Shown here: positions 20,454 to 35,044 of the stretch, piece by piece
Position numbering within the stretch: the first letter of the stretch is position 1
Layout: the number at the start of each line of letters is the position of its first letter
Assembly (NCBI RefSeq): GCF_007745175.1
Contig: NZ_CP036271.1
Coordinates: 3,050,314 to 3,114,313 of the forward strand
DNA length: 64,000 bases
Direction: 5' to 3'
From: Caulifigura coniformis
GTDB lineage: Bacteria > Planctomycetota > Planctomycetia > Planctomycetales > Planctomycetaceae
Program-made: the position numbers and the translations under genes
Notes under the pieces: model-generated
Database searches by the model: none
The model's input: the letters and a program-made list of their open reading frames with translations, nothing else
Told to the model about the DNA's origin: nothing

Positions 20454-20552
20454 TCGCCCTGGGGATTCTCTCGTGACCGCGACATCACGGCGCGACATCC
20501 CTATCGTGAGAGTTCCGGCCTTCTTCACGTCCAGACCCGTTTCCACGTCACT

Positions 20553-20660
20553 ATGCCACTTCTCGGCGCCCACATGTCCATCGCCGGCGGCTACTACAAA
20601 GCCGTCGACGCTGCCGCGGCACTCGGAATGGACACCGTCCAGATCTTCACCAAGAACTAA
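20553..20660 (+). pseudogene. nfo: Displaced 5' fragment of the endonuclease IV gene
   Basis: The ATG at 20553 opens MPLLGAHMSIAGGYYKAVDA, the N-terminus of endonuclease IV, and continues to VQIFTKN, where an in-frame TAA (20658-20660) follows directly. The rest of the gene is 13.5 kb away at 34143-35027. The break is at the sequence ACCAAGAAC, shared with the right junction. This is the original chromosomal start of nfo, cut off by the integrated element; the native nfo promoter should lie in 20454-20552. Confidence 0.9.
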
Positions 20661-22656
20661 CCAAATTGGACGGTGCAAGAGACCACTCGAATCGTTGGGG
20701 TTGTAGGGTGTAACTGTTTCGTCCTGTGCGTTCGGTCTTACGAGGTCCCTCCGTGGCAGGGTGGAACTTCCGGTCCCAGTACAGGACGACCTGCCGGAAC
20801 ACCCGTCGAAACGCTTCTCCACGTTCCCGGGCATCCAGTTGCGGAAGTTCGGTTTGGAGTTGGTCCAGTTGCTCCTGACGTTCCTGCTCAGCGCGGTAGA
20901 GGGACTCCAGACGAGTGGCCAAAGGGATCATCCGCGACTTCCATGTCTCAATGTCCTTCTCAATCTGATCCATCTTCTGCTTCATGATCGCCGCGGTCAC
21001 GTCGGTGGTCTCTGCCCACTTGAGCGTCAACGTGGTGAGCTGTTTCATCAAGGCGTCGACCTTCTGACGTGCCAGTTCGACACTCCGTTTCTCCGCGGCT
21101 TCGATCATCGTGCGGAGCTTCTGCACCTTGGAGGACCGTTCTTCCGGTTCGCTGGTGTAGAACTCGAAGGCCATCTTCCGCATCTTCTTCAGATCCGGGT
21201 ACTCGTTGTGCTGACCGATCTCATTCAGGTAACCGGCGAATGCATCGACACCTTCCTTGATCCACTTCTCCCAGTTCTGCATCGTCTCTTCGTCGTGATG
21301 ACCAAGGTTGGCTAACCGACGCTCGAGGTTGTCCCGGGCTTTGTCACTCGCAGTGGTGTCCAACCGGGTCCCCATCTCTTCCAACTTGGACAACAACAGT
21401 TTCTCCGCGTCCGCGTGCGTGATCCGGTGGTAACCGCAGTCGACTTTGTTCCCGTTACACCGACCCGCGATGTACGAAGTGCAGACGTAGATGACCGTCT
21501 TCTCCTTGGTCTGCGGATGAGTCTCGGTGCGGCCGGTCATTCCCTTTCCGCAATGGCCGCAGACGAAGATTTGTTTCAGGAAGTATGCGGGGTTCCGCGG
21601 TGCGAAGCTGGTCCGCTCCTGCTCTGACTCAAACTTCCGTTTGGCCATGTCCCAGGTCTTCCGGTCGATGAGTGGTTCGTGCGTGTCCTTGCGGACGATG
21701 CGGTCCGACTCATCCCGTTTCTTGACGACCTTCTTCTTGGAGGTCTTCAACTGCACCACCAAACCGTCTCCGTCGAACGTGTGCAGTTCTCCGGATTGCA
21801 TCTTCCCGAAGTGTGTTTCCCCGATGTACGCGGGGTTCGTCAGCACCTGAGTGACGAACGTGTGCGTCCACGGCCGTGAGTAGAACTTGCGTCCTTCGTC
21901 ATTCAGGCGGGCTGATATCTGGCGACGGGACAAACCAACACGGGTGTAGAGGTCGAAGACCAGACGGACAGAATCGACGAAGTCCCCGTTCCGGTTCGGG
22001 ATCAATTTCACTTGTTGCCCCTTGGACTTCCGGGGGATCTTCTCCTGCCCCGGAGTGAGGTTGAGCTTCCCCTTTGTGTCGGGAATGTAGAGTTCCCCGA
22101 TAGTCCGACTGACTGGATGCCATTCCCATCGCAGTTGACCATCCTCCCCGTAGCACGCTTTGGCATACCCGAAGGGGTGCGGACCGGTGGGCCACGACCC
22201 GCTGTCCTTGAAGTTGTTCACGCGGGTTCGCAGGGACCGGTAGGAGATGTCCTGCAACTCCTTCTCGGATTTGATGCTGCCGACGAAGACGTTGAGCTCC
22301 GTCCCAATGTCGCGTCCAGTGAGATCACGATTCTCCCGGAGGTCGATGAGCTGGGTTTCGTGCCACCGCAGCGTTCCGATCAAACCGAACAGTTCACACC
22401 GGTCTGCGGTTCCCCACCGGTCCTGAGACTCAACGTAGATCGTCCCGACACGGTCATTTTCGACGAGCTCCAGCAGACGGGCGAACCCCGGATCACTTTT
22501 GACATTCCGGCGCTTGATGGTCCCGACCATCCAGTGTTCGGGGTCGACGGTGACCCCGCGCTCCTTCAGCAGTGCCCGGACATTGTCGATCTGGCCCTGT
22601 TCATCCTGCTTGTCACTGCTCTTGCGGATGAACACCACGTCGAAGCGCTTCGCCAC
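20647..22656 (-). CDS. Large serine integrase
   Basis: About 669 residues. The resolvase catalytic domain opens KRFDVVFIRKSSDKQDEQGQ with the nucleophilic serine at about residue 13-14, and VESQDRWGTADRCELF holds a catalytic arginine. A recombinase domain (PFGYA ... RRQISARLNDEGRKFYSRPWT, then LTNPAYIGETHFGK) follows, then a zinc ribbon (CGHCGKGM ... CNGNKVDCGY) and a long C-terminal coiled coil. This is the phage-integrase type of serine recombinase. The frame is open to 22842, but a GTG at 22656 preceded by AAGGGG starts just before the catalytic domain. The stop codon lies inside the attL junction, so integration sets the C-terminus. Confidence 0.93.
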   Translation of the reverse strand: MAKRFDVVFIRKSSDKQDEQGQIDNVRALLKERGVTVDPEHWMVGTIKRRNVKSDPGFARLLELVENDRVGTIYVESQDRWGTADRCELFGLIGTLRWHETQLIDLRENRDLTGRDIGTELNVFVGSIKSEKELQDISYRSLRTRVNNFKDSGSWPTGPHPFGYAKACYGEDGQLRWEWHPVSRTIGELYIPDTKGKLNLTPGQEKIPRKSKGQQVKLIPNRNGDFVDSVRLVFDLYTRVGLSRRQISARLNDEGRKFYSRPWTHTFVTQVLTNPAYIGETHFGKMQSGELHTFDGDGLVVQLKTSKKKVVKKRDESDRIVRKDTHEPLIDRKTWDMAKRKFESEQERTSFAPRNPAYFLKQIFVCGHCGKGMTGRTETHPQTKEKTVIYVCTSYIAGRCNGNKVDCGYHRITHADAEKLLLSKLEEMGTRLDTTASDKARDNLERRLANLGHHDEETMQNWEKWIKEGVDAFAGYLNEIGQHNEYPDLKKMRKMAFEFYTSEPEERSSKVQKLRTMIEAAEKRSVELARQKVDALMKQLTTLTLKWAETTDVTAAIMKQKMDQIEKDIETWKSRMIPLATRLESLYRAEQERQEQLDQLQTELPQLDARERGEAFRRVFRQVVLYWDRKFHPATEGPRKTERTGRNSYTLQPQRFEWSLAPSNLVSSW
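20649..20657 (+). other. Left attachment junction (attL core)
   Basis: The core ACCAAGAAC is preceded by chromosomal nfo sequence (CAGATCTTC) and followed by element sequence (TAACCAAATTGG). The inferred empty site reads CTTC-core-AACAACC and the inferred circular junction reads TGGG-core-TAACC. Confidence 0.8.
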
Positions 22657-22706
22657 GTCCCACCCCTTGCCCACTGCTGTCGTCACGGTTGTATCAGGGG
22701 GCGGCG

Positions 22707-22745
22707 GCAGCGTCTCCGGCAGAGTGGGATGACCGGAGACGCTGC
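22707..22745. promoter_or_regulatory. 13-bp inverted repeat upstream of the integrase
   Basis: GCAGCGTCTCCGG and CCGGAGACGCTGC form a perfect 13-bp dyad around a 13-base loop, 50 bases upstream of the integrase GTG. It could be an operator, or a hairpin that stops read-through from the packaging-type operon. Confidence 0.5.
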
Positions 22746-22856
22746 GGTTCGGGGCATGAATCCGAACCTGCCGTTCCCTATGGACCCAAATGGTCACGTA
22801 GCCACCGGGTTGATCACAACGAAACGGACCGGGGAGAGGCACGTGTTACCTTCACC

Positions 22857-22894
22857 ACGACACGCGTCAACCACTGGACCGCGTGTCGTCTTTT
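22857..22894 (+). terminator. Hairpin between the packaging-type operon and the integrase
   Basis: ACGACACGCG and CGCGTGTCGT pair perfectly (10 bp) around a 13-base loop, followed on the plus strand by CTTTTC. No plus-strand gene ends here; on the minus strand it follows the last gene of the operon (22915) but lacks a T run, so its direction is uncertain. Confidence 0.5.
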
Positions 22895-22914
22895 CTCCCC
22901 GGTCCGCTGCCGGA

Positions 22915-23106
22915 TCACCTGCGATGCAGGAGAGGTTGGAACAGGGTCTCCAACTGCTTCATCATCATCTGTTCGGCACGCATCGCCTCTGATGCAAGTT
23001 CTTCAAAGGGCACGTCGTCTTCCCCGAACGGGTTCGGACCGATATCCAAGTCCGAGAAGTCCAGCGGGGGTGGGACCGGTGGCTTCTTACGCGACCGCTT
23101 GGGCAT
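22915..23106 (-). CDS. Small acidic hypothetical protein, last gene of the operon
   Basis: A 63-residue protein: a basic start (MPKRSRKKPPVPPPL), an acidic middle (DFSDLDIGPNPFGEDDVPFEEL) and a methionine-rich helix (AMRAEQMMMKQLETLFQPLL). It starts 20 bases inside the preceding gene and has GGAG upstream, so it is translationally coupled. No family recognised. Confidence 0.55.
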   Translation of the reverse strand: MPKRSRKKPPVPPPLDFSDLDIGPNPFGEDDVPFEELASEAMRAEQMMMKQLETLFQPLLHRR

Positions 23107-23707
23107 GATCCGGCTCCGGTTCATACATGCTGTTAAGGAACGGGAAGCTCGTGGACAGCTCGTCGAACTGATCCAGTTCCCGGTTCTCCGAGTTCCGCAG
23201 CAACCCGCATCCGGCGGCGAGCGAACATGCCCCGCGTTGGTCGGGCAGAATTGCCAAGTGGTCAGGTCGATGTTGGCGGGCAACGTGCGTGTAGCCCGAT
23301 CCGTTGAGCGTTTCCGACACGGGCTCATTGGATGTGTAGAGACCGGTGCTCACTTCAACCGGTTCTGATCGGTTCAACCGCACCCACAACGGATAGTCCA
23401 GGACTTTGACCCTCTCCTCATCGAACCACGCTTCACCCGTGAGGCGACGGCCGTCGAAAGCGACGTTGAACACCGATCCGAGCCATTGCTTGCTCAGGAC
23501 TTCGGGCGTCGTCGCGGAGTACGGGTATTGATCAGGATGCCGCAGAACGATTGGTCGTCCGTTCCAGAGAGGGACGGACTTTTCCATCTCCTCCGGCGGA
23601 TAGAACAGAGGACCACCCGATCCGTTATGGACCCCGACGGTCAGCATCACCACGGGGGCTACGAGGTAGTCCCGTCCGAGCCAAGTGCGTCGTTGAATGC
23701 GACTCAT
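23087..23707 (-). CDS. DUF2213-like phage prohead protease
   Basis: A 206-residue protein. APVVMLTVGVHNGSGGPLFY, SVPLWNGRPIVLRHPDQ, LTGEAWFDEERVK, EPVEVSTGLYTSNEP and DHLAILPDQRGACSLAAGCG match the block order of DUF2213 proteins, which are found in phage head-maturation positions. This is assigned from pattern memory; the putative catalytic residues are the H of DHLA and the S of GACS. The ATG at 23707 overlaps the upstream stop by 4 bases. In tailed phages this gene sits between portal and major capsid, but neither is present here. Confidence 0.65.
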   Translation of the reverse strand: MSRIQRRTWLGRDYLVAPVVMLTVGVHNGSGGPLFYPPEEMEKSVPLWNGRPIVLRHPDQYPYSATTPEVLSKQWLGSVFNVAFDGRRLTGEAWFDEERVKVLDYPLWVRLNRSEPVEVSTGLYTSNEPVSETLNGSGYTHVARQHRPDHLAILPDQRGACSLAAGCGLLRNSENRELDQFDELSTSFPFLNSMYEPEPDHAQAVA

Positions 23708-24018
23708 TTGAATTCCATCACAGGAACGGACAGGGGAGTCATGGCATGGTTGCGGGTGGGCTGGTGACCACCGCAACCACACCCCGTTTCCCGCGAGTCG
23801 CTGGGGGCGTCCTCGCGTTCAAAGTTCATAACTGGGAGGGGAAGGGGTTCCAGCGTGCCCGCGTTGGACACGGGGACCGTCTGGTTGTGGAGATACGAAG
23901 CGAAGTTCCGAACCGCGGCATGCACGTGATTCGGGTTGTTCGCCTGCAGGACGTAATCCGGGACGAAGTCGTTCGACCTGGGCTGCTCGGCGTTGTGAAT
24001 CATCTGGAACGTGGACAT
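23704..24018 (-). CDS. Hypothetical protein of the packaging-type operon
   Basis: A 104-residue protein (MSTFQMIHNAEQPRSNDFVP) with a cysteine/glycine patch (RETGCGCGGHQ) and two similar short motifs (LPLPVMNFE, LSVPVMEFK). AGGAG lies 8 bases before the ATG. The stop overlaps the protease-like gene's start by 4 bases. No family recognised. Confidence 0.6.
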   Translation of the reverse strand: MSTFQMIHNAEQPRSNDFVPDYVLQANNPNHVHAAVRNFASYLHNQTVPVSNAGTLEPLPLPVMNFEREDAPSDSRETGCGCGGHQPTRNHAMTPLSVPVMEFK

Positions 24019-24058
24019 CGGGAGTCTCCTGAAAGGATGTGAGAAACGGGTGAGGGGA

Positions 24059-24541
24059 CTATCGGATTGCCTGCAGAGCCATCAGGTACGCGGAAGACTC
24101 CTGTTTCTGTGCATGGATCCCGGCTTCAGCCCGACGCTGTTCCCGCACTTCGGGGAGTTGTTCGTACTGACGTTCCACTTCGTCGTAGCGACTCTTCCGG
24201 TCTTGGTAGATTTCCTTGAGCTCTTCAAGCTGCTTGTAGGCTTTGCTTGCCGGTGTCTCCGGAGGCATTCCGGTACTGACGGAATTGCGAGCCTGCTGTA
24301 TGAACTTGCTTTTGAGGTCGTGGAAGTTGCTGTAGGCGAGCTGGGTCCGCGTCCGTTCGTACATCAGCTGGTTGCCCATCCGTTCCAGAACCTTCTGAGG
24401 GCGATACATGATTGCCTGATGAGACGGATTCGAGTTGGACCGGATATTCCCGGTGGGGAAGTAGAGCCAACCGTTGTGCAGAATGGCCTCGTCCAATCCA
24501 CCGTTGTCGATGTCGAACTGTTTCACGGACTCGTGCATCAC
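24059..24541 (-). CDS. Hypothetical protein, tandem paralogue 2
   Basis: A 160-residue protein. Its N-terminal part (FDIDNGGLDEAILHNGWLYF then PTGNIRSNSNPS) resembles that of the preceding gene, and the rest is a long charged helix likely to coil (KAYKQLEELKEIYQDRKSRY). It starts inside the upstream stop codon (ATGA overlap at 24538-24541). Position after the terminase suggests a structural or packaging role; no family is recognised. Confidence 0.6.
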   Translation of the reverse strand: MMHESVKQFDIDNGGLDEAILHNGWLYFPTGNIRSNSNPSHQAIMYRPQKVLERMGNQLMYERTRTQLAYSNFHDLKSKFIQQARNSVSTGMPPETPASKAYKQLEELKEIYQDRKSRYDEVERQYEQLPEVREQRRAEAGIHAQKQESSAYLMALQAIR

Positions 24542-25020
24542 TCGTCTCCGTCAGGTTCAGGGGTCAGGATGGATTCGATGTTCGCACCACGGCGGGCTTG
24601 CCGTTCCCGGATCAGGACGTTGATGGGAAGGTTGTGAAGTTCGGCAACTGCTTCCGCGTGGAGACGCTTCCAGTGTTCGAACTGGTCCTGGGTCTGACGG
24701 AACAGACGGGACGTTTCGAGGCACACCTTGTCGCCCACGACCGTCACGAACTCGCTGGCAACACGTTTCCGGGCTTCGGTGTGTGCGGCCGCAGATCGTT
24801 CGGCCATCTTGGAATGGTGCTGGATGCGGTTCTGCAGGCGCTGGATATCAGTGAACGACTCCGGTTCCCGCAGGACGACAGCCGTGGCGTGCCGGTTAGC
24901 AGACCGGACGGCCCCCGTCTCGAAGTACAGGTCACCACCGAACCGGACGGCGGTGTCGAGATGGTGACGACGGTCGAAGTCCTGAAGTGGTGTGAGCGGA
25001 GGTTGTACGATGGTGCTCAT
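24538..25020 (-). CDS. Hypothetical protein, tandem paralogue 1
   Basis: A 160-residue protein (MSTIVQPPLTPLQDFDRRHH). The block LDTAVRFGGDLYFETGAVRS aligns with the next gene's LDEAILHNGWLYFPTGNIRS, and both continue into a charged helical region, so the pair arose by duplication. It overlaps the terminase stop by 4 bases (25017-25020). Function unknown. Confidence 0.6.
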   Translation of the reverse strand: MSTIVQPPLTPLQDFDRRHHLDTAVRFGGDLYFETGAVRSANRHATAVVLREPESFTDIQRLQNRIQHHSKMAERSAAAHTEARKRVASEFVTVVGDKVCLETSRLFRQTQDQFEHWKRLHAEAVAELHNLPINVLIRERQARRGANIESILTPEPDGDE

Positions 25021-26465
25021 GTCAGGCTCCATTCCGAAGCGGGGGCGTCGTCTACTTCGAATCCACCGAGGGTCACTCCAGTTACGGCGCGGACGAGAGC
25101 ACCGCATGCCGCGTTGCTTGCGTCGTCATGACAGCGTGGAGGATGGTCCACGACATCGCGTCCTCCCGACCTGACGCGGCGCTCAAGACTTGCCAGCTGG
25201 GAAATCAAAAGATCGCTGTCCAGAAGCTCTACCTCGCCCGATAAGGCTTTCGGGAGAAACTCAAGGTAAATCTCGGACTTCGATAGTTCGCTCCGCTGAT
25301 ACCAGATGTTGTTCTGTTTGAACGACGACGCGGTGAACTCCGCGGAATAATTATCACCGCAAACTGAGTCGATGCGCCAGCGACGCAGTTCGCGGCACAT
25401 TTCTAGGATGCTGTGGAAGGGGTTGCAGGGAGCCGGCCACACCCGCAACAGGTCAAGGATGGCTTTTCGTCCTTCCTTGTGTGCGATCGCCAGGGCGCTC
25501 GAGTCCGATCTCCCGCCGCCGATGTCGCAAAATGCGATGTGCTTACCCCGAGTGGTTGGAAAAGACTCCTGCTTCCCTTTCACCACAAGCGACTCAATCA
25601 CGCTTCGTGGTAAAAACTGGCTGACATCCGACCTCCATTCCGCGTAATACTCAGCACGTGCAGCGTCTGGATCGTCCTGCATTGCACTGTCGATGATCGA
25701 CTGCGATAGGGTCGAATTCATCACCTTCGAAGGTGCTTGTAGAACTAGCGTGGATCCACTGTCGTTCGCGTAGTTCTTCTGCCATGTGGAATGAGCCCAA
25801 CCCCTCTGAGCGTAGGGCGAGCTGATCGCAATTAGGCGCCCATGCGTCGACGCAAGCGTCGGTTTCAATGCACGAACCAGTTCGGTGTCGGACTTGATGC
25901 GGCTATCTTCTTCGACGCCTAGAAAGCAGACCTCGTCCAGGACAACACAGATTCCGGTTGCTCCCCGGACACTGCGAAAATCCCCTGTCATGATCTCGAT
26001 CGAGACGTTGTGCTTTAGCTCGATGGAATCGCGTCCACGAGACACCACCTCTTTAGCGAAGAGTGGGATTTCGAAGATTGCATCAGCATAGTCGCGGATC
26101 AGCTTGCTCTGACGGCGTGTTGGTGAACATATGATTACTACTCCGCGTTCACCTGGGCTGAGCTTCCGCTTGTCGAAACCGACAGTGGCCTCGAACGCGG
26201 CGATGACGCTTGCGATCCGAGACTTGCCCGAGCGTCGTCCGGTCAGGAACAGTGCAGTGTCAAATCCGTTCGCTGGAAGCTTGGCAGGGTCACGACCGGT
26301 ATAGGTGCGGATGAACTTTTGCGAGCGCTCGCTCTGAATCGGCAAGCCATAAAGTGCTCTCAGCGTTGGACCCCAACTGCAGAGCCACGAGTTGATGTCA
26401 TCGTCACTGTTGGCGATGAACGATCTCAGGAGTCGCGCGTCCTTAAGGCACTCAATGATGTTCAT
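25017..26465 (-). CDS. Terminase large subunit
   Basis: A 482-residue phage DNA-packaging motor. The ATPase has Walker A (LTGRRSGKS, about residues 74-82), an adenine-side motif (ICSPTRRQSKLI) and Walker B (GICVVLDEVCF, about 171-181). The nuclease half shows acidic residues in FCDIGGGRSDSSALAIA, VCGDNYSAEF and HDDASNAACGALV. Length agrees with terL (450-550). The ATG at 26465 overlaps the upstream stop by 4 bases. All expected motifs are present, so the protein appears intact. Confidence 0.88.
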   Translation of the reverse strand: MNIIECLKDARLLRSFIANSDDDINSWLCSWGPTLRALYGLPIQSERSQKFIRTYTGRDPAKLPANGFDTALFLTGRRSGKSRIASVIAAFEATVGFDKRKLSPGERGVVIICSPTRRQSKLIRDYADAIFEIPLFAKEVVSRGRDSIELKHNVSIEIMTGDFRSVRGATGICVVLDEVCFLGVEEDSRIKSDTELVRALKPTLASTHGRLIAISSPYAQRGWAHSTWQKNYANDSGSTLVLQAPSKVMNSTLSQSIIDSAMQDDPDAARAEYYAEWRSDVSQFLPRSVIESLVVKGKQESFPTTRGKHIAFCDIGGGRSDSSALAIAHKEGRKAILDLLRVWPAPCNPFHSILEMCRELRRWRIDSVCGDNYSAEFTASSFKQNNIWYQRSELSKSEIYLEFLPKALSGEVELLDSDLLISQLASLERRVRSGGRDVVDHPPRCHDDASNAACGALVRAVTGVTLGGFEVDDAPASEWSLT

Positions 26466-26833
26466 GCGGACCGCTCCCGCAGGTAGTCCTGCAACGAACC
26501 GGCCGCTTTGACCTGCTGGTCGAGTCCGAGAGTTTTCAAAATTCCGACCAGCGAGTTGACCAAGCAAACATAGGGACCGGGTTGAAAGTCCTCAGTCCCA
26601 TTGGCTGCGTTGATCTCCATCGTCTCGATACGGATGCTCAGGAAGACGCATCGGTCACAAAGTAGACGACGCTGGGGGGATTCCTCGGCACCGGTGGCTT
26701 CGATGAGCTCATTGCGGCGACGGCGGATCTCCTGCGACAGGACGGTTCGGGAGTCGAGGTCACTGAAGAACTTCGCCTCAAACCGAACCGGCAGCTTGTT
26801 GAGATCAGAATTCCTCTTCGTCTTGTGCGACAT
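26462..26833 (-). CDS. Possible terminase small subunit
   Basis: A 123-residue protein immediately upstream of, and overlapping by 4 bases, the terminase large subunit: the usual position of terS. The sequence (LSQEIRRRRNELIEATGAEE, LLCDRCVFLSIRIETMEINA) is mainly helical, without a clear helix-turn-helix. GGTGGAGAG precedes the ATG. It is the first gene of a seven-gene operon. The assignment is from position only. Confidence 0.5.
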   Translation of the reverse strand: MSHKTKRNSDLNKLPVRFEAKFFSDLDSRTVLSQEIRRRRNELIEATGAEESPQRRLLCDRCVFLSIRIETMEINAANGTEDFQPGPYVCLVNSLVGILKTLGLDQQVKAAGSLQDYLRERSA

Positions 26834-26879
26834 CTCTCCACCCCGTTGTCATCCCACGAGGTGGCCACAATAGGCCCCT

Positions 26880-27491
26880 TTATTTTTGATGGCTCGTGTA
26901 AATAGAGAGATCAATTTGTTCGCGCTTCAGGCAGTCGTAGACGGCCTGTCGAGACTTCTTGAGATGCTTAGCCGCACCGGACAGGGACATTCCTTTCTCC
27001 AACAGCGGGACGATGTCCTTGGCGAACAACGACGGACGCTTGCCGATCCGTGCACCACGCAGCCGGGCGTCGTACATGCCCCGTTTGGTGTTCTCCCGGA
27101 GGTTCTCCCGTTCCATCTGAGCCAGGGCAAAGAACACTGTTGCGATCAGCTGACCAACAGTCCCCGAGAAGTCGAGCTGCTGAGCGACGGCGACGACCCG
27201 GACATCCTTTTCGATCCAGTCGGTGAGGACATTGATCCCGTCCTTTAGGCTTCGCGAAATCCTGTCGAGCTTCCAGCAGACAATGCACTTCACACGGCCG
27301 GAGAAGACCTCCTTCTGTAGCTTTTCGAACTCCGGGCGCTTCGTGGTCGCCCCGGACATCCTGTCGGTGTACCACCTTGCTTCCCCCATGCCGTGGGCTT
27401 CGAGGTATTCGCGTAGCACCGTCTTCTGTGACTCGATTCCCTTCTCTTGGTCGAACGTGCTTACCCGGACGTAAACGGCGATCTTGGACAT
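26880..27491 (-). CDS. Small serine recombinase (resolvase/invertase)
   Basis: A 203-residue protein of standard resolvase length. The catalytic domain begins MSKIAVYVRVSTFDQEKGIE, with the nucleophile at Ser11; VCWKLDRISRSLKDGINVL and LIATVFFALAQMERENLREN are conserved. A short C-terminal helix-turn-helix (GMSLSGAAKHLKKSRQAVYDCL) binds DNA. AAAGGAAAG precedes the ATG. It may resolve multimers or invert a segment of the element. Confidence 0.9.
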   Translation of the reverse strand: MSKIAVYVRVSTFDQEKGIESQKTVLREYLEAHGMGEARWYTDRMSGATTKRPEFEKLQKEVFSGRVKCIVCWKLDRISRSLKDGINVLTDWIEKDVRVVAVAQQLDFSGTVGQLIATVFFALAQMERENLRENTKRGMYDARLRGARIGKRPSLFAKDIVPLLEKGMSLSGAAKHLKKSRQAVYDCLKREQIDLSIYTSHQK

Positions 27492-27581
27492 GCGTCTTTC
27501 CTTTGATGCAAGGTGCAGTCGGTAAATAGAGACGGCCCGAGGTGCATCCTCGGGCAGGTCACTGGTTCGCCGCGTGGTCGA

Positions 27582-27872
27582 CTACTTCTTGATGTAGAAG
27601 CCGTCGTCGGTCTTCACCACGTTGATGCCGCGTTCCTTCGACATCCGTCCCGGCACCTGACACTGCGTGGTCCGGGTAAGCGCCGTCACCTCCCTGTCCG
27701 GGAACCGTTTGGCGAGGCGTTCCACAATGCCCTCCTTGGTGATGGGCTTCTCCTTCGTAGCCTTCGAAAGGAACTCCTCGATGCTGGCGATCACCCCCGG
27801 CGTCTTCTTGGCGGGGGCATCTTGCTTGGCAGGGGCAGGGGTCTTCTTCGGTGCGGTCTTGGTGGTAGCCAT
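27582..27872 (-). CDS. Histone-H1-like basic protein with winged-helix-like C-terminus
   Basis: A 96-residue protein. Residues 1-27 are a lysine/alanine/proline-rich tail (MATTKTAPKKTPAPAKQDAP) like H1-type nucleoid proteins. Residues 28-96 (IASIEEFLSKATKEKPITKE ... RTTQCQVPGRMSKERGINVV) look like a small DNA-binding winged helix. A GCCCGAGG/CCTCGGGC hairpin at 27535-27555 follows its stop. It may compact element DNA or regulate transcription. Confidence 0.6.
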   Translation of the reverse strand: MATTKTAPKKTPAPAKQDAPAKKTPGVIASIEEFLSKATKEKPITKEGIVERLAKRFPDREVTALTRTTQCQVPGRMSKERGINVVKTDDGFYIKK

Positions 27873-28370
27873 CGGGTTTGGTCTCGGTGTGGTGGTTTGG
27901 TTCGATGCAACGGCGCATCGCTGCCCATTGTCCAAACGCCCGTTGGCCCTGGCTCCCCAAGGTCCCCTAACCCGTACACCGCTTCCGGACCCCACAGACC
28001 CCGGGAAACGTGGGGTTTACGGGGGTGGGTTGTGCGACCCCTAAACTGGACACCCCACAGCCCACCGTGTCCTGCGTTGGCGTTGGTCCGGGTACAGGAA
28101 CCCGCCCTGGGCTGTTTGGTCGCGCCCTACGCGAATCCCGGGGGTTAGAACCGCACGTAACCCGTGGTGGTGGGCCGGGCCAACGGGGGAGTAGAAGCAG
28201 GTGACACGGATGGCGTTTCCCTCGACCGGCTCAGGATCGGGCAGCCCACCCGTCCCCCTGCTAATCGTGCGGATGCGATTTGTAGCTGAAGTCGTTGGCA
28301 TGAGTCCTCGTCAGTCTTACGATGGTTGATCATCTAGATTGGCACCACGTTCGACTCGAGAGGGCTGCTC
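27873..28370. other. Non-coding spacer inside the element
   Basis: These 498 bases separate the minus-strand block from the plus-strand two-gene cassette. Repeated GGGGT/ACCCC-type words occur (around 28000-28050), but no reading frame has coding character. Promoters for both directions should lie here. No clear operator was identified. Confidence 0.35.
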
Positions 28371-28832
28371 ATGGGTACTGGGAAAATTGAGTTCTCCTTT
28401 GGTGGCTTCGATTTCAAAGGCGAGGGAGACGAACAATGGGTCTCCAAGCAACTGCTGCTTGTTCTCGACAAGGTCCCTGAATTACTGAAGCACGTACCTG
28501 CGGCCTCCAAACCGGGATTCAATGGAGGTGACAAAACGCCACAGGAGAATCCCGGAGTCGTGGGGACGCTTGCGAAGTTCCTGAACGACCACACAGCGAC
28601 CAAGAGTCAGAACAAGAAGTTCTTGGCCACTGCCGCTTGGTTGACGTTGAAAGGATCGAGTCGGTTGACAACTGCCGATGTGACGGGCGCGCTTAGGAAC
28701 CACCACCAGACTAAGATCAACAACCCTTCGGAAACGCTGAATCAGAATGCCAGCAAGGGGTATTGTCAGAAAGAATCGAAACAGTTCTTTGTCACTCCAG
28801 AGGGTTTTGAGTATCTCGGAATTGAGCGATGA
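28371..28832 (+). CDS. Hypothetical protein of two-gene cassette, winged-helix-like
   Basis: A 153-residue protein. The N-terminus (GKIEFSFGGFDFKGEGDEQW) looks like a beta-hairpin element; the C-terminus (LTTADVTGALRNHHQTKINN ... KQFFVTPEGFEYLGIER) resembles a winged helix. GAGAGGG precedes the ATG. Its stop overlaps the next start (ATGA, 28829-28832). Codons are more A/T-rich than in host genes, which fits acquired cargo. No family recognised. Confidence 0.55.
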   Translation: MGTGKIEFSFGGFDFKGEGDEQWVSKQLLLVLDKVPELLKHVPAASKPGFNGGDKTPQENPGVVGTLAKFLNDHTATKSQNKKFLATAAWLTLKGSSRLTTADVTGALRNHHQTKINNPSETLNQNASKGYCQKESKQFFVTPEGFEYLGIER

Positions 28833-29587
28833 GCGTCACTCCAGCGGACGCACTCAAGTCCATACCTGTAGGTCTCCGGAACTCATTGCTGCATGAATAC
28901 CAGCAGATCGTGGAACACTTTCAAGCTAGGAAGTGGCTGCCAACAGAACTGAGCGGCGGGCGTTTCTGCGAAGTCGTTTATACCATTCTAGATGGTCGAG
29001 CTAAGGGGACGTACCCCGCGAAGCCCTCCAAGCCAAACGGCTTTCCCGACGCGTGCAAACGACTCGAAAACAATGTTAACGAGCCAAGAAGCTTTCGCAT
29101 CCTCGTTCCGAGGGTTCTGGTGGCCCTCTACGAGATTCGGAACAATCGCGGCGTAGGACATGTGGGCGGCGACGTTGATCCTAATCACATGGATTCAGTT
29201 GTCGTCGTTGGCATGGTCGATTGGGTCATGGCCGAACTGATTCGAGTGTTTCACACGCTCACTACTGGCGAAGCACAACGTGTCGTTGATCAGATCGTCG
29301 AGCGGAAGATTCCTTTGGTCTGGAAAGGAAGCGGCGACGTTCGGCGTGTGCTGAATACGAAACTGAAGGCGGCAGATCAGGTTCTGGTACTCGTCTACTC
29401 GAATGGAAATCGGTCTACTCTGAAAGAGCTTTTGGTGTGGACCGAATACTCTAACCCTCACAACTTCCGCCAGATTCTCCGCAATCTGCATAGATCTAGG
29501 CATCTCGAACTCTCAGCGAGTGGGGACGTTGAATTGTTGCCACCGGGCATTCAGGCAGCTGAGGATTTGATCTTGGACAACAAATAA
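28829..29587 (+). CDS. HEPN-type protein of two-gene cassette, possible defence or toxin gene
   Basis: A 252-residue protein. EIRNNRGVGHVGGDVDPNHM contains R-N-x5-H, the RNase-type motif of HEPN domains, within a helical context (FCEVVYTILDG ... MVDWVMAELIRVFHTL) like that of abortive-infection C-terminal domains. The last 80 residues (LKAADQVLVLVYSNGNRSTL ... GDVELLPPGIQAAEDLIL) resemble a winged helix. It is coupled to the upstream gene by a 4-base overlap. HEPN proteins often cleave RNA in anti-phage or toxin-antitoxin systems; that role here is inferred. Confidence 0.55.
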   Translation: MSVTPADALKSIPVGLRNSLLHEYQQIVEHFQARKWLPTELSGGRFCEVVYTILDGRAKGTYPAKPSKPNGFPDACKRLENNVNEPRSFRILVPRVLVALYEIRNNRGVGHVGGDVDPNHMDSVVVVGMVDWVMAELIRVFHTLTTGEAQRVVDQIVERKIPLVWKGSGDVRRVLNTKLKAADQVLVLVYSNGNRSTLKELLVWTEYSNPHNFRQILRNLHRSRHLELSASGDVELLPPGIQAAEDLILDNK

Positions 29588-29639
29588 TGTGACCCGGGGT
29601 AGGCCAGCTTTCGCTCTCCGGGCCTGATGCCTACCGAAC

Positions 29640-29936
29640 TCAGTTCTTCCAAGCCATCCGTTCCTCGGCTGTTGGTGGTGACAAGATCAGATTGAGATGG
29701 TCTTCGAACGACATCTCATCAGCTTCATTGTCGCGTGCAGATGCTTCGTCCTGCTGCGCCTGCACGTGATCTATTGCGAGGATTTCGTTGGTACGCAATT
29801 CTGTGCATGTGCCGTAGTCGGCTTTCTTCCACAGTTGGGCTACTCGGCTCACGATGGGCTCTGGGTCCAACGACGCATTCTCGAATGCTGTCTTGAGGAG
29901 CGTTCTCAAGTACAACTGAAATGCGGGCATCCCAAC
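29640..29936 (-). pseudogene. 3' part of a gene split by the IS3-family insertion
   Basis: This is the C-terminal piece (VGMPAFQLYLRTLLKTAFEN ... SPPTAEERMAWKN) of a hypothetical gene whose 5' part lies on the other side of the insertion sequence (31228-31480, same strand). Removing the IS and one copy of the 4-base target repeat joins AAS to VGMPAF in frame. An ATG at 29930 could still allow a shortened product. Confidence 0.75.
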
Positions 29937-30017
29937 TGACCTGCCCCCCTTCAACGAGTCCACAGTTCGGGTAGATTCTGCCTCGAACGTGGACCTTCAC
30001 CGGGAGGAGGCAAGGTC

Positions 30018-30296
30018 ATGGCGAGGAAACGATTTGGCGCTGAGCAGATCATCCCCAAGCTTCGAGAAGCCGAGGTCGAGATCGCTCAGGGAGCGACGGT
30101 CGCCGTCGCCGCCAAGAAGATTGGCGTCACCGAGCAGACGTACTACCGCTGGAAGAAGGAGTACGGTGGACTGAAGATGGATCAGGCCAAGCGGCTCAAG
30201 GAGCTCGAGAAGGAAAACGCCCGGCTCAAGCGGCTCCTGGCCGATGCGGAGCTCGACAAGGCCATCCTGCGGGAGGCCGCCTCGGGAAACTTCTGA
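30018..30296 (+). CDS. IS3-family transposase OrfA
   Basis: A 92-residue DNA-binding protein. The helix-turn-helix (RFGAEQIIPKLREAEVEIAQ ... AAKKIGVTEQTYYRWKKEYG) is followed by a leucine-zipper region (AKRLKELEKENARLKRLLAD) for oligomerisation. GGAGG precedes the ATG. The full transposase is normally made by a -1 frameshift into orfB. Confidence 0.9.
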   Translation: MARKRFGAEQIIPKLREAEVEIAQGATVAVAAKKIGVTEQTYYRWKKEYGGLKMDQAKRLKELEKENARLKRLLADAELDKAILREAASGNF

Positions 30297-30319
30297 GCCC
30301 GGCGAAGCGGCGCCAGGCC

Positions 30320-31198
30320 GTGGCGTACGTCCGCAATTCGCTGGGCATCGAACACGTCTCAGAGCGTCGAGCCTGTCGTGTGCTGGGGCAGATGAGATCC
30401 ACCCAACGCCGCCAGGCCCACGTTCCGAATGAGGAACCTCGCCTGATCCGGGACATGGTCGCTCTGGCGACGCAGTACGGCCGGTACGGCTATCGCCGGG
30501 TCACGGCCCTGCTGCGGCGGGATGGCTGGAAGGTCAATCACAAGCGGGTGGAACGCCTGTGGCGACAGGAAGGCCTGAAGGTTCCCAAACGTCAGCCGAA
30601 ACGGAAGCGGCTGTGCTTCAACGACGGATCCTGCGTCCGGCTGCGGCCAGCGCACCGGGATCACGTCTGGAGCTATGACTTCGTGCAGACCCGGACGCAC
30701 GATGGTCGGCCGGTCCGGATGCTGACCGTCATCGACGAGTTCACGAGGGAGTGCCTGGCGATCGACGTGGCCAGAAAGCTGACCAGCGAAGACGTCCTGG
30801 AGCGACTCAGCGGCCTGTTCGTCTGCCGAGGCGTTCCGCAGCACATTCGTTCCGACAACGGTCCTGAGTTCACAGCCACTGCCGTTCAGGACTGGCTGAG
30901 GAGGGTTCGCGTGAAGACGTTGTTCATCGAGCCCGGCAGTCCGTGGGAGAACGGCTATGTGGAGTCGTTCAACGGGAAGCTGCGTGACGAGCTGCTCGAT
31001 CGGGAAGTGTTCGAGACCCTGCTGGAGGCGAAGGTGCTGATCGAGCGGTGGCGTGTGGAATACAACACCATCAGGCCGCATAGCTCACTGGGGTATCGTC
31101 CCCCGGCCCCGGAGGTGCGCCCGCTGCAGAGGCCTGCTTCCGCTGCGCTCCAGCAGGCCTCTGCAGCGGATCCTTTGACAAGCGGGTCTTTAAGTTAG
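30320..31198 (+). CDS. IS3-family transposase OrfB (DDE integrase)
   Basis: About 292 residues from a GTG at 30320; the frame is open further upstream into orfA (LSPAKRRQAV), so the natural product is probably an OrfAB fusion by frameshift. The catalytic triad is visible: D in VWSYDFVQTRTHDGRP, D in IRSDNGPEFTA, and E in ENGYVESFNGKLRDELL. LGIEHVSERRACRVLGQMRS is typical of the IS407/IS51-like groups. The frame appears intact, so the IS may be active. Confidence 0.9.
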   Translation: MAYVRNSLGIEHVSERRACRVLGQMRSTQRRQAHVPNEEPRLIRDMVALATQYGRYGYRRVTALLRRDGWKVNHKRVERLWRQEGLKVPKRQPKRKRLCFNDGSCVRLRPAHRDHVWSYDFVQTRTHDGRPVRMLTVIDEFTRECLAIDVARKLTSEDVLERLSGLFVCRGVPQHIRSDNGPEFTATAVQDWLRRVRVKTLFIEPGSPWENGYVESFNGKLRDELLDREVFETLLEAKVLIERWRVEYNTIRPHSSLGYRPPAPEVRPLQRPASAALQQASAADPLTSGSLS

Positions 31199-31227
31199 AG
31201 GTTGGTAGCGTCCGTGGGGGCAGGTCA

Positions 31228-31480
31228 CGACTGACGCGGCCAGCACACTTCCCGGTAAGTTGCAGATCGCATCACCTGCTCGATGCGTCCCGTTCACCCA
31301 TGACGCAAGAAACGTCTCCGCATCCTTGCGTGCAGTGAGCGTGATCGCACAGTAAAGCATGTCCTTTGGTCCTGAGATTGAGGCGACGTCCCAGAACCCT
31401 GCATCACGCGGGATGAATGACTTCAGAGAAGCCTGCTCAGACAGCTCTTTCGCGAACTCTTCGACAAACACGTTCGACAT
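31228..31480 (-). pseudogene. 5' part of the gene split by the IS3-family insertion
   Basis: It begins MSNVFVEEFAKELSEQASLK and continues to CNLPGSVLAASV, where the IS starts; read-through adds a few IS-derived residues before a stop at 31190. With the part at 29640-29936 the original protein was about 180 residues. No family recognised. Confidence 0.7.
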
Positions 31481-31581
31481 CGCACTCTCCTAGTGAAACT
31501 GTGATGCGGACCGACCCGAAATGAGTCGTTTGCGCGGGGCGACTTGTAACGATGGCTCTGCAACCTGCGAAGCTTTGCGAG

Positions 31582-31884
31582 GGGAGATTCTTGCAAGAAT
31601 CTCCCAAGATCATTGCCCTTGTCCTTGCACGGAGTTTCCTGGGGTTCCTTGACCCCTCATGGAACTTTTGAGCTCAGGACAAGGCCATTCTCGGCGAAGT
31701 GAGAGAATGCCGTTTTGACAGACGCCGGCGTCTGAAGGAAATTGGGAGACCGCATCGACCCTCCGGGAAAAGAATTTTCCCGTGGTGGACCTCGAAACAG
31801 GGTCAGAGGTGGCCGACCGGGCGAAGAGAGAGTGCGGTCAGGAGAGGTGGAGAAGACGACCCGTAGAAGGGGACAGGACTGTCC
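31582..31884. other. Cluster of palindromes in a non-coding region of the element
   Basis: Within the 514 bases without a gene (31481-31994) six dyads are packed. They are: a perfect 24-bp palindrome at 31582-31605 (half-site GGGAGATTCTTG); a 9-bp stem CCTTGTCCT/AGGACAAGG at 31617-31684 enclosing GGGGT/ACCCC; CATTCTC/GAGAATG at 31686-31709; the perfect palindrome CAGACGCCGGCGTCTG at 31719-31734; CGGGAAAA-GAA-TTTTCCCG at 31764-31782; and GGACAG-GA-CTGTCC at 31871-31884. Candidates are a recombination site, a replication or transfer origin, or a packaging site. No gene is visible on either strand. Confidence 0.6.
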
Positions 31885-31976
31885 TAGGGTTTCGGCCCCC
31901 ACGAACAGGGGCACAACAACCCTTGGCGTCCAGTGTTTCACCTCACCAATGGGCAATCGGCGGACGAGCCTCCGGC

Positions 31977-32015
31977 AAAAAATGGTACACCCCTTCAATG
32001 GGTGAATTCGTACCA
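31977..32015 (-). terminator. Terminator of the 239-residue recombinase gene
   Basis: On the minus strand GGTAC and a CACCC/GGGTG stem around ATTGAAG are followed by TACCATTTTTTG. The recombinase stop codon (31995-31997) lies inside the hairpin. Confidence 0.6.
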
Positions 32016-32714
32016 CTCTTCGAGTGTCAAATCCTGCCACCTCTGAACGGTGCTAACCGGGACCCTGAGAATGGCGGCTTTTCGACGCAGTGGGATCTGG
32101 AGAATGCACATCCAGCGAAGCTGGTCGTAGACGAGTCGGCCCTTGTGGCGATCACGTAGGGCACCGGCTTTTCGCTTCTTGGGCCGACCAGTGTTCGGAT
32201 TCCACTTCGTCTGTTCTTTGGCGATTTCCGCAGGAGTGGCGTCAGGGTGCATGCACGTCGCGAGGCGAACCGAACCGGCTTCTCTCAACAGCTGCTGGAA
32301 GTCCGCGACGGCAGGGAGGAAGTTTTCATCCCGGTCACTGTTGTAGTCCGCGTGGCGAACGAATCGGTCCATTGACGCGGCGACGACAACGGCACCATGT
32401 TCCCGAGCAAATGTGATCGCATTGGCAAGCTGAGGGCGTTCGTTCTTCCACCCGGACCCTACCTCAGTAAACTCGGCGATGTTTTCGACGTTCAGACCCC
32501 GCAGCCTGTTGCGGAGGTACTGCAGGCGATGTTCGAGGTTGTCTCCGCGGGCTTGATTCCGACCGGAGACGCGCACGTAGAGGACAATCCGCAGGACTGC
32601 GGTGAGCGATAGCAGGGCGGGAAGATGATGGAGGAAGTCGCTCGGTTTACCCGGCGTCTGATATTCCTGACTCCTCCGTGGAGGAGTTCCATAGTCCGCT
32701 TCGAGAACGTCCAT
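31995..32714 (-). CDS. Atypical small serine recombinase
   Basis: A 239-residue protein. LRIVLYVRVSGRNQARGDNL carries the serine nucleophile at about residue 52, and VVVAASMDRFVRHADYNS the D-R motif. About 40 residues precede the catalytic domain, which is unusual. The C-terminus (LQIPLRRKAAILRVPVSTVQ) ends in a helix-turn-helix. The start at the ATG 32714 is a choice; a TTG at 32723 is in frame. An inverted-motif site lies directly upstream (32726-32784) and a palindrome cluster downstream. Confidence 0.75.
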   Translation of the reverse strand: MDVLEADYGTPPRRSQEYQTPGKPSDFLHHLPALLSLTAVLRIVLYVRVSGRNQARGDNLEHRLQYLRNRLRGLNVENIAEFTEVGSGWKNERPQLANAITFAREHGAVVVAASMDRFVRHADYNSDRDENFLPAVADFQQLLREAGSVRLATCMHPDATPAEIAKEQTKWNPNTGRPKKRKAGALRDRHKGRLVYDQLRWMCILQIPLRRKAAILRVPVSTVQRWQDLTLEEWYEFTH

Positions 32715-32725
32715 GATGTCCAATC

Positions 32726-32784
32726 TTCGGGAGACCCCCTCCCGAACACTATGGCGATTGGACGGACCACAGTATTCGGGAGGG
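32726..32784. promoter_or_regulatory. Three inverted copies of TTCGGGAG: recombinase site or operator
   Basis: Two 18-base arms (32737-32754 and 32767-32784), matching at 16 of 18 positions as an inverted repeat, are 12 bases apart. A third TTCGGGAG lies at 32726-32733. The site starts 12 bases before the recombinase ATG. This resembles the multi-subsite res/operator regions next to resolvase genes. Confidence 0.6.
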
Positions 32785-32906
32785 ATCGTGTCGGGCGGTA
32801 GCTACTCCGCCTTACCCGTACGCTAAATGTCGTGATTACCTTGGGGATGATCCCGCGATCATCTCCGGCAGTCGATGACAAACATCCCATCTGCAATGGA
32901 CGATGG

Positions 32907-33944
32907 CTACCCCGTAGCCATGATCCTCAACAGGGTCTGGACGTAGAGGGCATCATTCTTGTCCCCGATCTCCTGCGCGACCTTACGGCACCTCTCCCGC
33001 AGTGACCGACCCCGTATCGTCAGTTGGTGGGCGAGGAACAGCGTCGTCCTCGCGATATCTCGCGGGTCACTGGGGTTGGCACACCATTCCTGCGGGGCCC
33101 ATTGGACAGCGGGACTGCACACAACAGGCACGCCTCTCCCGGCCGCTTCCCATGCGTTGAAGCAGAACGTCTCCGTGAAGCTGGCGTGCAGCAGGATGTC
33201 GACGCGGGTCTCCAGCGTGCGGATGTAATCCTTCCACGGTTGGATACCGATCGGTTCCGCGTCGAGGTCCATGCTTGCCGCGAGGTCCAGCAACGTCTTG
33301 ACCTGGGCTGGTGTCCCTCCCACTCCAAGCAGCAACCGGAACGGACGGACCCGGTTGGCGATGGCGAGGGCCGAAATCTGATCGGGGATATTCTTGATGG
33401 CATCCCTGCGGCAGATGATCGCCGCAGACATCACCTCCGGTATGGGGCGGACAGGGGGCGCCGGTCTGAGGTGCATGCATGTGTTCGGGAGACACACGAT
33501 CCGGGGATGACCGTGAGCGGCCGGAAAGTTCCGCGGGTCCGGTGAAGCCAACCAGCAGTTGGACAAGTCCTTGGAGAGCTGGACAAAGTCGAGGTGCTTC
33601 TGCAGCAGTCCCTCCGCGAGGATGCAGTGAGACAGGGCGCTGTGATTGACGGCGACAAAGTGCGTCTGCGGATATCGCTGGGCAAGGTCCCGAACGACTT
33701 CGGGTTTGAGGCACAGCATCCCAATCAAAAGGATGCGGGGTTGGAACTTCTCCAGATACGCGGCGGGGTCTTCGGGAACTTGCCGGACCTGCATCGTCAC
33801 TCCCGCCTTGGCGAGCCGGAGGATCGGCACCTTTGACTTCTGCGGCTGATCGTGGTGCTGACCACGCATCAGCAATAGGACATCACATTGGGATGGTGAC
33901 TTGGTGGAGGGGGACTCCGCGGATACCGTTTCAAGCAGTTGCAT
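32907..33944 (-). CDS. GT-B type glycosyltransferase (cargo gene)
   Basis: A 345-residue protein. The C-terminal half has the GT4-like block DILLHASFTETFCFNAWEAA followed by GRGVPVVCSPAVQWAP, with the E-x7-E type nucleotide-sugar site, and LLLGVGGTPAQVKTLLDLAA at the start of that domain. The N-terminal half (PILRLAKAGVTMQVRQVPED ... ILLIGMLCLKPEVVRDLAQR) is Rossmann-like. AAGGAGTG precedes the ATG. It is the last gene of the element and its start is only 24 bases from the divergent chimeric nfo start. It may modify a surface sugar. Confidence 0.75.
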   Translation of the reverse strand: MQLLETVSAESPSTKSPSQCDVLLLMRGQHHDQPQKSKVPILRLAKAGVTMQVRQVPEDPAAYLEKFQPRILLIGMLCLKPEVVRDLAQRYPQTHFVAVNHSALSHCILAEGLLQKHLDFVQLSKDLSNCWLASPDPRNFPAAHGHPRIVCLPNTCMHLRPAPPVRPIPEVMSAAIICRRDAIKNIPDQISALAIANRVRPFRLLLGVGGTPAQVKTLLDLAASMDLDAEPIGIQPWKDYIRTLETRVDILLHASFTETFCFNAWEAAGRGVPVVCSPAVQWAPQEWCANPSDPRDIARTTLFLAHQLTIRGRSLRERCRKVAQEIGDKNDALYVQTLLRIMATG

Positions 33945-33968
33945 GCTTTCACTCCTTCAGGTTGGTTG

Positions 33969-35027
33969 ATGCCTCTTCTCGGTGCTCACATGTCGATTGC
34001 GGGCGGTCTCCACAAAGCCGTGGAAGCCGCTGCACGTCTGGGGATGGACACGGTTCAGGTGTTCACAAAGTCCCCCTCGCAATGGGGACTGACCCCGATA
34101 GCCCCAGGAGTCGGAACAGGCGTCCAATCTGGTGTGTCTGGGACCAAGAACAACAACCAGTGGCGCGGCAAACCACTGGTCGAGCACGACATTCGCCTCT
34201 TCCGCGAGGCGCTCGACCGCACGGGCCTCCAGCATCCCTGCGCCCACAACAGCTATCTCATCAACGTCGGCAGCGCGGATCAGACGCTCTGGCAGAAATC
34301 GGTGGACGCCCTCGTCGATGAAGTCGAACGGGCCGAAGCCTTCGGCCTCGATGGGATCGTCATGCACCCTGGTGCTGCCGTGGGGGCGACGGAGGAAGAG
34401 GCGCTGGCCCGCATTGTTCTGGGCATCGATGAAACGCACCGTCGCACTCCAGAAGCCCGTGCAGAGCTCTGGCTGGAAGCGACGGCCGGGCAGGGATCGT
34501 GCCTCGGCTGCCGCTTCGAGCACCTCGCCTTCATCATCGACAACGTCGAGCAGCCCGAACGACTCGGCGTCTGCATCGACACCTGCCACATCTTCGCCGC
34601 CGGCTATCCGATCGGTACACCGGACGAGTTCAACGCGACGTTCCGGCAACTGGATGACCTGGTCGGCCTCGATCGTGTTCGGGCCTTTCACGTCAACGAC
34701 AGCAAGAAGCCCCTTGGAAGCCGGGTCGACCGACACGACCACATCGGCGAAGGCTGCCTCGGCCTGGAACCCTTCCGCCTGCTGCTGAATGACGAGCGCT
34801 TCGCACGCCTGCCGATGTACCTCGAAACGAAGAAGGAACAACGTGACGGCGAAGAGATGGATGCCGTTAACCTGCGGACGCTGCGGGCCCTGATGGCGGG
34901 AGCGCCATCGGCGAACAGGCCCTCGGGACAGACGAAGGTCCAGGCGAAACCGTCGGAGGGCGGGGTTCCCGCCGAGCCGCCTCCGGCCAGGAAACCGGCC
35001 ACCCGCGCCCGATCCCGCCGGCCTTGA
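33969..35027 (+). CDS. nfo: Endonuclease IV, chimeric after integration
   Basis: A 352-residue AP endonuclease. The metal ligands are all present: H in CAHNSYLINV, H in IVMHPGAAVG, E in LWLEATAGQGS, D and H in CIDTCHIFAAGY, H in AFHVNDSKKPLGSR, D and H in VDRHDHIGEG, and E in YLETKKEQ. Residues 1-60 come from the element, the rest from the chromosome. Compared with the reconstructed ancestral gene (326 residues) it has a 26-residue insertion after FTK (SPSQWGLTPIAPG ... VSGTK). The ATG at 33969 has no good ribosome-binding site and only 24 bases separate it from the divergent gene, so expression is doubtful. Confidence 0.92.
   Translation: MPLLGAHMSIAGGLHKAVEAAARLGMDTVQVFTKSPSQWGLTPIAPGVGTGVQSGVSGTKNNNQWRGKPLVEHDIRLFREALDRTGLQHPCAHNSYLINVGSADQTLWQKSVDALVDEVERAEAFGLDGIVMHPGAAVGATEEEALARIVLGIDETHRRTPEARAELWLEATAGQGSCLGCRFEHLAFIIDNVEQPERLGVCIDTCHIFAAGYPIGTPDEFNATFRQLDDLVGLDRVRAFHVNDSKKPLGSRVDRHDHIGEGCLGLEPFRLLLNDERFARLPMYLETKKEQRDGEEMDAVNLRTLRALMAGAPSANRPSGQTKVQAKPSEGGVPAEPPPARKPATRARSRRP
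34143..34151 (+). other. Right attachment junction (attR core)
   Basis: The core ACCAAGAAC is preceded by element sequence (GTGTCTGGG) and followed by chromosomal nfo sequence (AACAACCAGTGG). It lies in frame inside the chimeric nfo. Confidence 0.8.
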
Positions 35028-35044
35028 CTGTTCGGGACCTCGTC

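Follow-up and report, generated by a model that had tools for sequence, protein, structure and literature searches.

Probable replacement of the nfo 5' end by a serine-integrase element in the planctomycete Caulifigura coniformis

The divided endonuclease IV gene and its replacement start

The endonuclease IV gene, nfo, of Caulifigura coniformis is divided by a 13,494 bp element which, as comparison with related genomes suggests, is probably a nfo-targeting, 5'-replacing element that carries a large serine integrase and has its attP site in the 3' end of the integrase gene. The element was analysed in a window of 64,000 nucleotides, that is, the whole stretch of DNA under study (contig NZ_CP036271.1, positions 3,050,314 to 3,114,313), from a 6.76-Mb genome assembled as a single contig; coordinates below are those of the window. 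The host start of nfo, a remnant of 35 codons (20553-20657, plus strand), is terminated by an element-derived TAA (20658-20660), and the remainder of the gene begins at 34143. The element is bounded by direct copies of a 9-bp core, ACCAAGAAC, at 20649-20657 (attL) and 34143-34151 (attR), with the crossover in attL predicted between 20649 (A) and 20650 (C).

At its right end the element carries a second nfo start (33969-34142, plus strand), consisting of about 45 nfo-like codons followed by a linker to the junction. The host 5' end and this element copy form a 102-nt direct repeat with 75% identity (20553-20654 and 33969-34070), the largest direct-repeat family within 20300-34600. From the ATG at 33969 the frame crosses the junction and closes with the host stop codon at 35027 (open reading frame, ORF, 33939-35027), giving a hybrid nfo gene (33969-35027, plus strand) of 352 amino acids with a 26-codon insert in the FTK..QW loop. 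Since the nfo 5' end brought by the element is joined in frame with what is left of the host gene, nfo has been 5'-replaced and not simply broken. Endonuclease IV of Escherichia coli aligns twice with the hybrid over the FTK..QW loop, indicating that the element copy reaches about ten codons beyond the crossover.

An uninterrupted nfo with an intact FTKNNNQW motif was found in a genome of the same genus (G005, loci L117 and L173), and the gene downstream of it is an orthologue (57.5% identity) of the window gene at 35024-36334. This is the empty site which the sequence-only reading of the window had proposed to look for in relatives. Over 35 residues the host remnant agrees with the Nfo of this genome at 31 positions and the element copy at 27, and the left fragment is therefore the native nfo start. 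Composition alone is only suggestive of an element, since the G+C content per 1-kb bin ranges from 0.54 to 0.64 inside and from 0.585 to 0.677 outside. A tRNA gene as the target of integration was discarded, as ARAGORN found no tRNA in the window, and Rfam at curated thresholds gave no match in 20000-35100.

The serine integrase and its attachment sites

The left end of the element is occupied by the large serine integrase ORF (20647-22842, minus strand), whose single product contains Resolvase, Recombinase and zinc-ribbon domains, all above Pfam cut-offs. The sequence-only reading had placed such an integrase here, next to a split nfo and with a matching nfo 5' end carried by the element; the divided gene, the coordinates of the 35-codon fragment, the second core copy and the junction repeats were all confirmed when the sequence was rechecked, and the in-frame fusion of the carried end is an addition to that reading. 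The true start of the integrase is uncertain, its first ~64 amino acids being 98% shared with a second element of the same genome. The segment 22651-22842 encodes these 64 amino acids, 98% identical to the start of the integrase at L145, beyond which the two integrases differ, so that a mosaic boundary is apparent.

The stop codon of the integrase, TGA (20649-20647), uses two bases of a host Phe codon. The same holds for integrated-state integrases in two further planctomycete genomes, G302 and G424, discussed below: all three proteins end in Ser-Trp followed by a stop composed of the core A and two host Phe bases, a TTC codon yielding TGA and a TTT codon yielding TAA. When the ends of the element are joined, inverted-repeat arms appear in attP, ACCAAATTGGAC (20660-20671) and GTCCAATCTGGT (34122-34133), which match at 11 of 12 positions and each lie 10 nt from the centre. 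The arms of the window, G302 and G424 (best 12-base matches 11/12, 8/12 and 11/12, respectively) share their best centre, which falls after the first base of ACCAAGA, and from this common dyad centre AC is predicted as the crossover dinucleotide (A^CCAAGA). None of 5000 shuffles, which were applied to the window only, reached 11 matches.

Taken together, a phage-derived, satellite-like element probably uses its large serine integrase to integrate at the conserved FTKNNNQW codons of nfo. Integration would exchange the first 34 codons of the gene and add 26 residues without destroying it; at the same time it would strip the integrase of a C-terminal tail, the host Phe codon completing the integrase stop, and such trimming might affect the direction of recombination.

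Recurrence at nfo in other planctomycetes

A screen for nfo starts covered 170 genomes of the family (109 with a match) and 397 of the class (325 with a match). Ten screened genomes were followed, namely nine with at least two nfo-start matches among the matches listed and one, G371, with none; G140 was read separately. In G302 (L210), which belongs to another family of the class, an integrase 51% identical to that of the window over 669 amino acids converges on a host nfo fragment, so that the homologue beside a split nfo anticipated for other planctomycetes does exist, and a hybrid nfo of the form FTHSPSQW-linker-TKNNNQW is located on another contig. In G424, a different serine integrase (26% identity), partial at the contig end, abuts the host nfo fragment; here too, integrase and hybrid are on different contigs.

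Comparable inserts precede an intact TKNNNQW in four more nfo genes (G424, G442, L097 and L074). Serine-recombinase-like genes are located upstream of the hybrids in G442 and L097, the resolvase at L097 being 45.5% identical to that of the window, and the L074 hybrid is just 404 bp from a contig end. The screen for nfo starts yielded G302, G424 and G442; L074 and L097 were met among nfo loci preselected by protein similarity and open frames, and are therefore biased to open frames.

Integrase matches with E <= 1e-40 were present in seven of the 397 class genomes including that of the window, and among the six others G302 alone has its integrase at nfo. The proposal that every serine integrase of the broad group targets nfo was ruled out by 34 distant-relative loci without a nfo start (L005-L033 and L218-L222, mostly covering <=1.5 kb on each side; one pattern match in L219 was spurious). 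In L222 the frame beside the integrase looks like comM by eye.

Additional nfo 5' fragments were seen elsewhere. At L216 (G428), L081 and L161/L172 (G077) they lie ~0.4-0.7 kb upstream of an intact, insert-free nfo, with small ORFs, immunity-like by eye, in between; G428 has two such fragments. In G190 (L214/L215, contig C11, 46-152 kb), a nfo 5' fragment with a serine recombinase (by eye) nearby and an intact nfo are ~105 kb apart on one strand, and the stretch between them may be a large island whose replacement start has no insert. Decayed solitary fragments away from an intact nfo occur at L162 (G140, contig C61) and L163 (G142, contig C161), that of G140 resembling an SPSQW-type start.

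Insert lengths and possible scars of lost elements

Loop inserts were surveyed in 112 nfo sequences from two collections, in which some genomes occur twice. Ninety-nine have the short loop, 12 carry inserts, and one (L042, whose duplicate G067 is normal) was misread by the pattern. The insert is exactly 26 residues long in six genes, those of the window, G302, G134, G138, G144 and G073, and from 9 to 22 residues in the others. G134, G138, G144 and G073 each have a single nfo start in the screen, and a tblastn search of their neighbourhoods (L164-L166 and L169) with 11 element proteins found no match. Their inserts are probably scars of lost elements, those of G134 and G144 perhaps stemming from one event.

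The same four inserts could instead belong to a vertically inherited loop variant that served as the source of the elements' 5' ends, an explanation that is a real possibility, if a somewhat doubtful one. It would account for FTNSPSQW without a long insert in L072, for other insert lengths (18 in G074 and 9 in G071), and for G134 and G144 being mutually nearest in both parts of the gene; against it speak the exact match in length to two present elements and the C-terminal parts of G138, which are nearest to the insert-free G140 and G142. As for the elements themselves, the replacement ends of the window and G302 are mutually nearest (0.91), and the C-terminal parts of their nfo genes are nearest to insert-free genes (0.69 and 0.61, respectively).

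A putative antisense tail of the integrase

With the ends of the element joined, the integrase frame runs on into the right end, on the strand opposite to that of the Nfo linker, and stays open for 28 (window), 19 (G302) and 17 (G424) residues from the core-coded Ser. In the window this tail corresponds to 34059-34142 (minus strand). We infer from this arrangement that attP lies within the 3' end of the integrase gene, that the integrase of the circular form would gain a C-terminal tail, and that the tail would be translated in that form. The tail is conserved in four of six right ends (window, G302, L097 and G442); those of G424 and L074 are different. Fourteen tail codons compared among the four gave a BLOSUM sum of 185, against -52 and 45 in the other antisense frames and -3 in the Nfo sense frame, with the tail frame of L097 and G442 assumed from the junction, their integrases themselves not having been seen. 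Third positions account for 63 of 125 differences in these codons, and none of 20000 shuffles scored as well. The excess at third positions is the better argument, since shuffles ignore shared ancestry. By eye, no shared tail was found in the last 75 residues of nine distant integrases; a tenth locus in that comparison, L217, is G302 once more. The predicted circular-form tail of the different integrase of G424 (right end at L209) ends in VVVAA, presumably resembling protease degrons, which is speculative.

Conservation of the antisense peptide might simply reflect conservation of attP as DNA, given that CAGATTGG, inside the arm, is common to three of the four right ends at the DNA level. This seems unlikely, because the peptide is maintained over seven codons outside the arm, with 19, 11 and 35 differences at the first, second and third codon positions (again reached by none of 20000 shuffles), and because the arm DNA of G302 differs and yet the tail pattern remains.

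An attP with two coding roles can be proposed tentatively, with a confidence that falls a little short of even: one strand would encode the integrase tail in the circle and the other the inserted Nfo loop, so that integration would both trim the integrase and lengthen the loop, and endonuclease IV, to judge from inserts that persist after loss of the element, would have been remodelled repeatedly by elements in planctomycetes.

The hybrid endonuclease IV

Against TIGR00587, for which the cut-off is 129.65, the hybrid protein reaches 282.9 bits. Its AlphaFold2 model shows a confident barrel with an element-borne strand-helix-strand at the start, and in fold it comes closest to E. coli endonuclease IV, with a template modelling (TM) score of 0.93-0.94 by target length; the hybrid is thus predicted to retain the endonuclease IV fold apart from the insert. 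Catalytic-core residues are conserved across the nfo alignment. Between the window and G302, the replacement ends show non-synonymous and synonymous divergence (dN and dS) of 0.105 and 2.9, respectively, over 34 codons; dN being far below dS, these ends diverged as coding sequence, either on the elements or before capture. The stop-free 24-codon linker by itself was dismissed as evidence, as 50% of shuffles were also open. No gene of exonuclease III, xth (TIGR00633), was matched in the window genome, 9 of 14 control genomes being positive. From these sequence features it appears that the hybrid Nfo would be made and active.

Several observations weigh against this reading of the element. Residues 35-63 of the hybrid fall below a predicted local distance difference test (pLDDT) score of 50, so that the insert is predicted to be disordered, and the predicted structure of the same-genus Nfo is without such a low-confidence gap. 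The FTK..QW loop, which we take to contact DNA in endonuclease IV, is the site of this insert, and activity of the hybrid is therefore not assured. No sigma-70-like promoter was found in 33600-34200, including the region upstream of 33969, in a search directed at this promoter type, and only 24 bp separate the replacement start from that of a divergent ORF. The symmetry of attB is weak (6/12 at best). The integrase and the hybrid are on separate contigs in both G302 and G424, and the hybrids of G442, L097 and L074 were seen with no left end. Finally, insert-free genes are next nearest to the replacement end of the window (0.88).

Some of these points would suit a switch, in which Nfo, its action blocked by the loop insert, is inactive after integration and active again after excision, in the manner of the SpyCI islands with mutL: the disordered insert in a conserved loop and the missing promoter match are what such a switch might show, and a repair-gene precedent exists (PMC3430984, consulted in excerpt, as were the other papers cited by PubMed Central, PMC, accession). 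It is nevertheless quite improbable, for the replacement end is in frame with dN far below dS, comparable in-frame hybrids recur, the catalytic core is conserved across the alignment and the genome has no xth match. An assembly artefact or a dead passenger element, which the insertion sequence copy inside the element might suggest, is highly improbable given that the genome is on a single contig and that another genome has the same structure together with a homologous integrase; misassembly in particular is unlikely.

Other genes of the element

Among the remaining genes of the element, a terminase large subunit (TerL)-like protein (25017-26567, minus strand; phrog_2, E 6.7e-26) and a DUF2213/head-maturation-protease-like protein (23087-23782, minus strand; Pfam score below the cut-off) represent phage packaging genes, and no capsid or tail family was found among the element proteins scanned. 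A small protein (26462-26833, minus strand) takes the place of the small terminase subunit by position alone, with no family match; the second element encodes a counterpart with 43.5% identity. Next to it, a small serine resolvase (26880-27491, minus strand) is identical in sequence over 203 amino acids to one in the second element, and a second small resolvase-like protein is encoded at 31995-32723 (minus strand). Cargo may include a glycosyltransferase-like ORF (32907-33944, minus strand; Pfam scores below cut-offs), divergent from the nfo replacement. An IS3-family insertion sequence with two transposase ORFs lies within the element (30018-31198, plus strand) and is richer in G+C (0.64 bin) than the rest. 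PADLOC gave no defence match for five element proteins submitted.

TerL relatives are present in six of 169 other genomes of the family, some with serine and some with tyrosine integrases (gene lists read by eye), suggesting that integrase modules are exchanged. The viral contigs scanned with the integrase and TerL contained no relative, and seven phage records had distant TerL matches with identity <=29%. The second element of the genome (~293.2-305.6 kb, L144/L145, contig C1) has a related backbone, 73-98% identical to the nfo element in patches, and another serine integrase. By eye it splits a yjbQ/UPF0047-like gene, at which no replacement start was seen, as would be consistent with replacement ends being retained at targets that matter.

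Comparison with known systems

The integrases of dusA islands belong to the tyrosine family, and SXT supplies a new 5' end to prfC. In dusA islands, island sequence replaces the 5' end of the gene (PMC4482086); islands and prophages at dusA and dusB resemble the nfo element in exchanging the 5' end of a conserved gene whose TIM-barrel product is thought to be functional, and differ in target, and no fixed-length coding scar or integrase trimming is described in the excerpts of that paper. The integrative and conjugative elements SXT/R391, which integrate at the 5' end of prfC (PMC2791158), are unlike the nfo element in using a tyrosine recombinase, in being conjugative and in their target. SpyCI islands, which integrate at the 5' end of mutL, are likewise phage-like and enter a DNA-repair gene, but they silence mutL until excision (PMC3430984), whereas the nfo element supplies an in-frame replacement end. 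In a catalogue of large serine recombinases (PMC10083194), site-specific integrases are described, among them different enzymes that all target a single conserved gene; its targets are presented as disrupted, unlike the replaced nfo, and the terms "endonuclease" and "planctomyc" have zero occurrences in its main text.

Self-interrupting, or suicidal, integrases are stated to be exclusive to archaea (PMC8371274). Those of the SSV1 type resemble the arrangement proposed for the nfo element in having the recombination site inside an integrase gene that is altered by integration, but they are tyrosine recombinases split in two (PMC8371274), while the bacterial serine integrase at nfo would lose a short tail only. 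Given that the latter is a serine recombinase whose Pfam-recognised domains are intact after integration, it may work in part like a suicidal integrase without being a member of that class.

The sequence-only reading had considered this integration undescribed. Among the matches listed, the open-licence PMC text contained nothing relevant on nfo as an integration site or on this serine-integrase arrangement, so that the claim stands for the target; it does not stand for replacement of a 5' end, which was already known from dusA (PMC4482086) and prfC. The new aspects are thus the nfo target, the class of recombinase, the coding insert and the putative trimming of the integrase.

Implications

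The gene nfo is identified as a site at which integration recurs in planctomycetes, and the element provides a serine-integrase example of replacing, and not breaking, the start of a repair gene. The conserved attB in nfo could serve planctomycete genetics as a landing site, and the hybrid loop offers a directly testable case of an enzyme absorbing element-derived coding sequence. If the tail is translated, integration would change the integrase in a way that has been called exclusive to archaea (PMC8371274), and if attP is indeed coding on both strands, the trimming would perhaps fix the direction of recombination.

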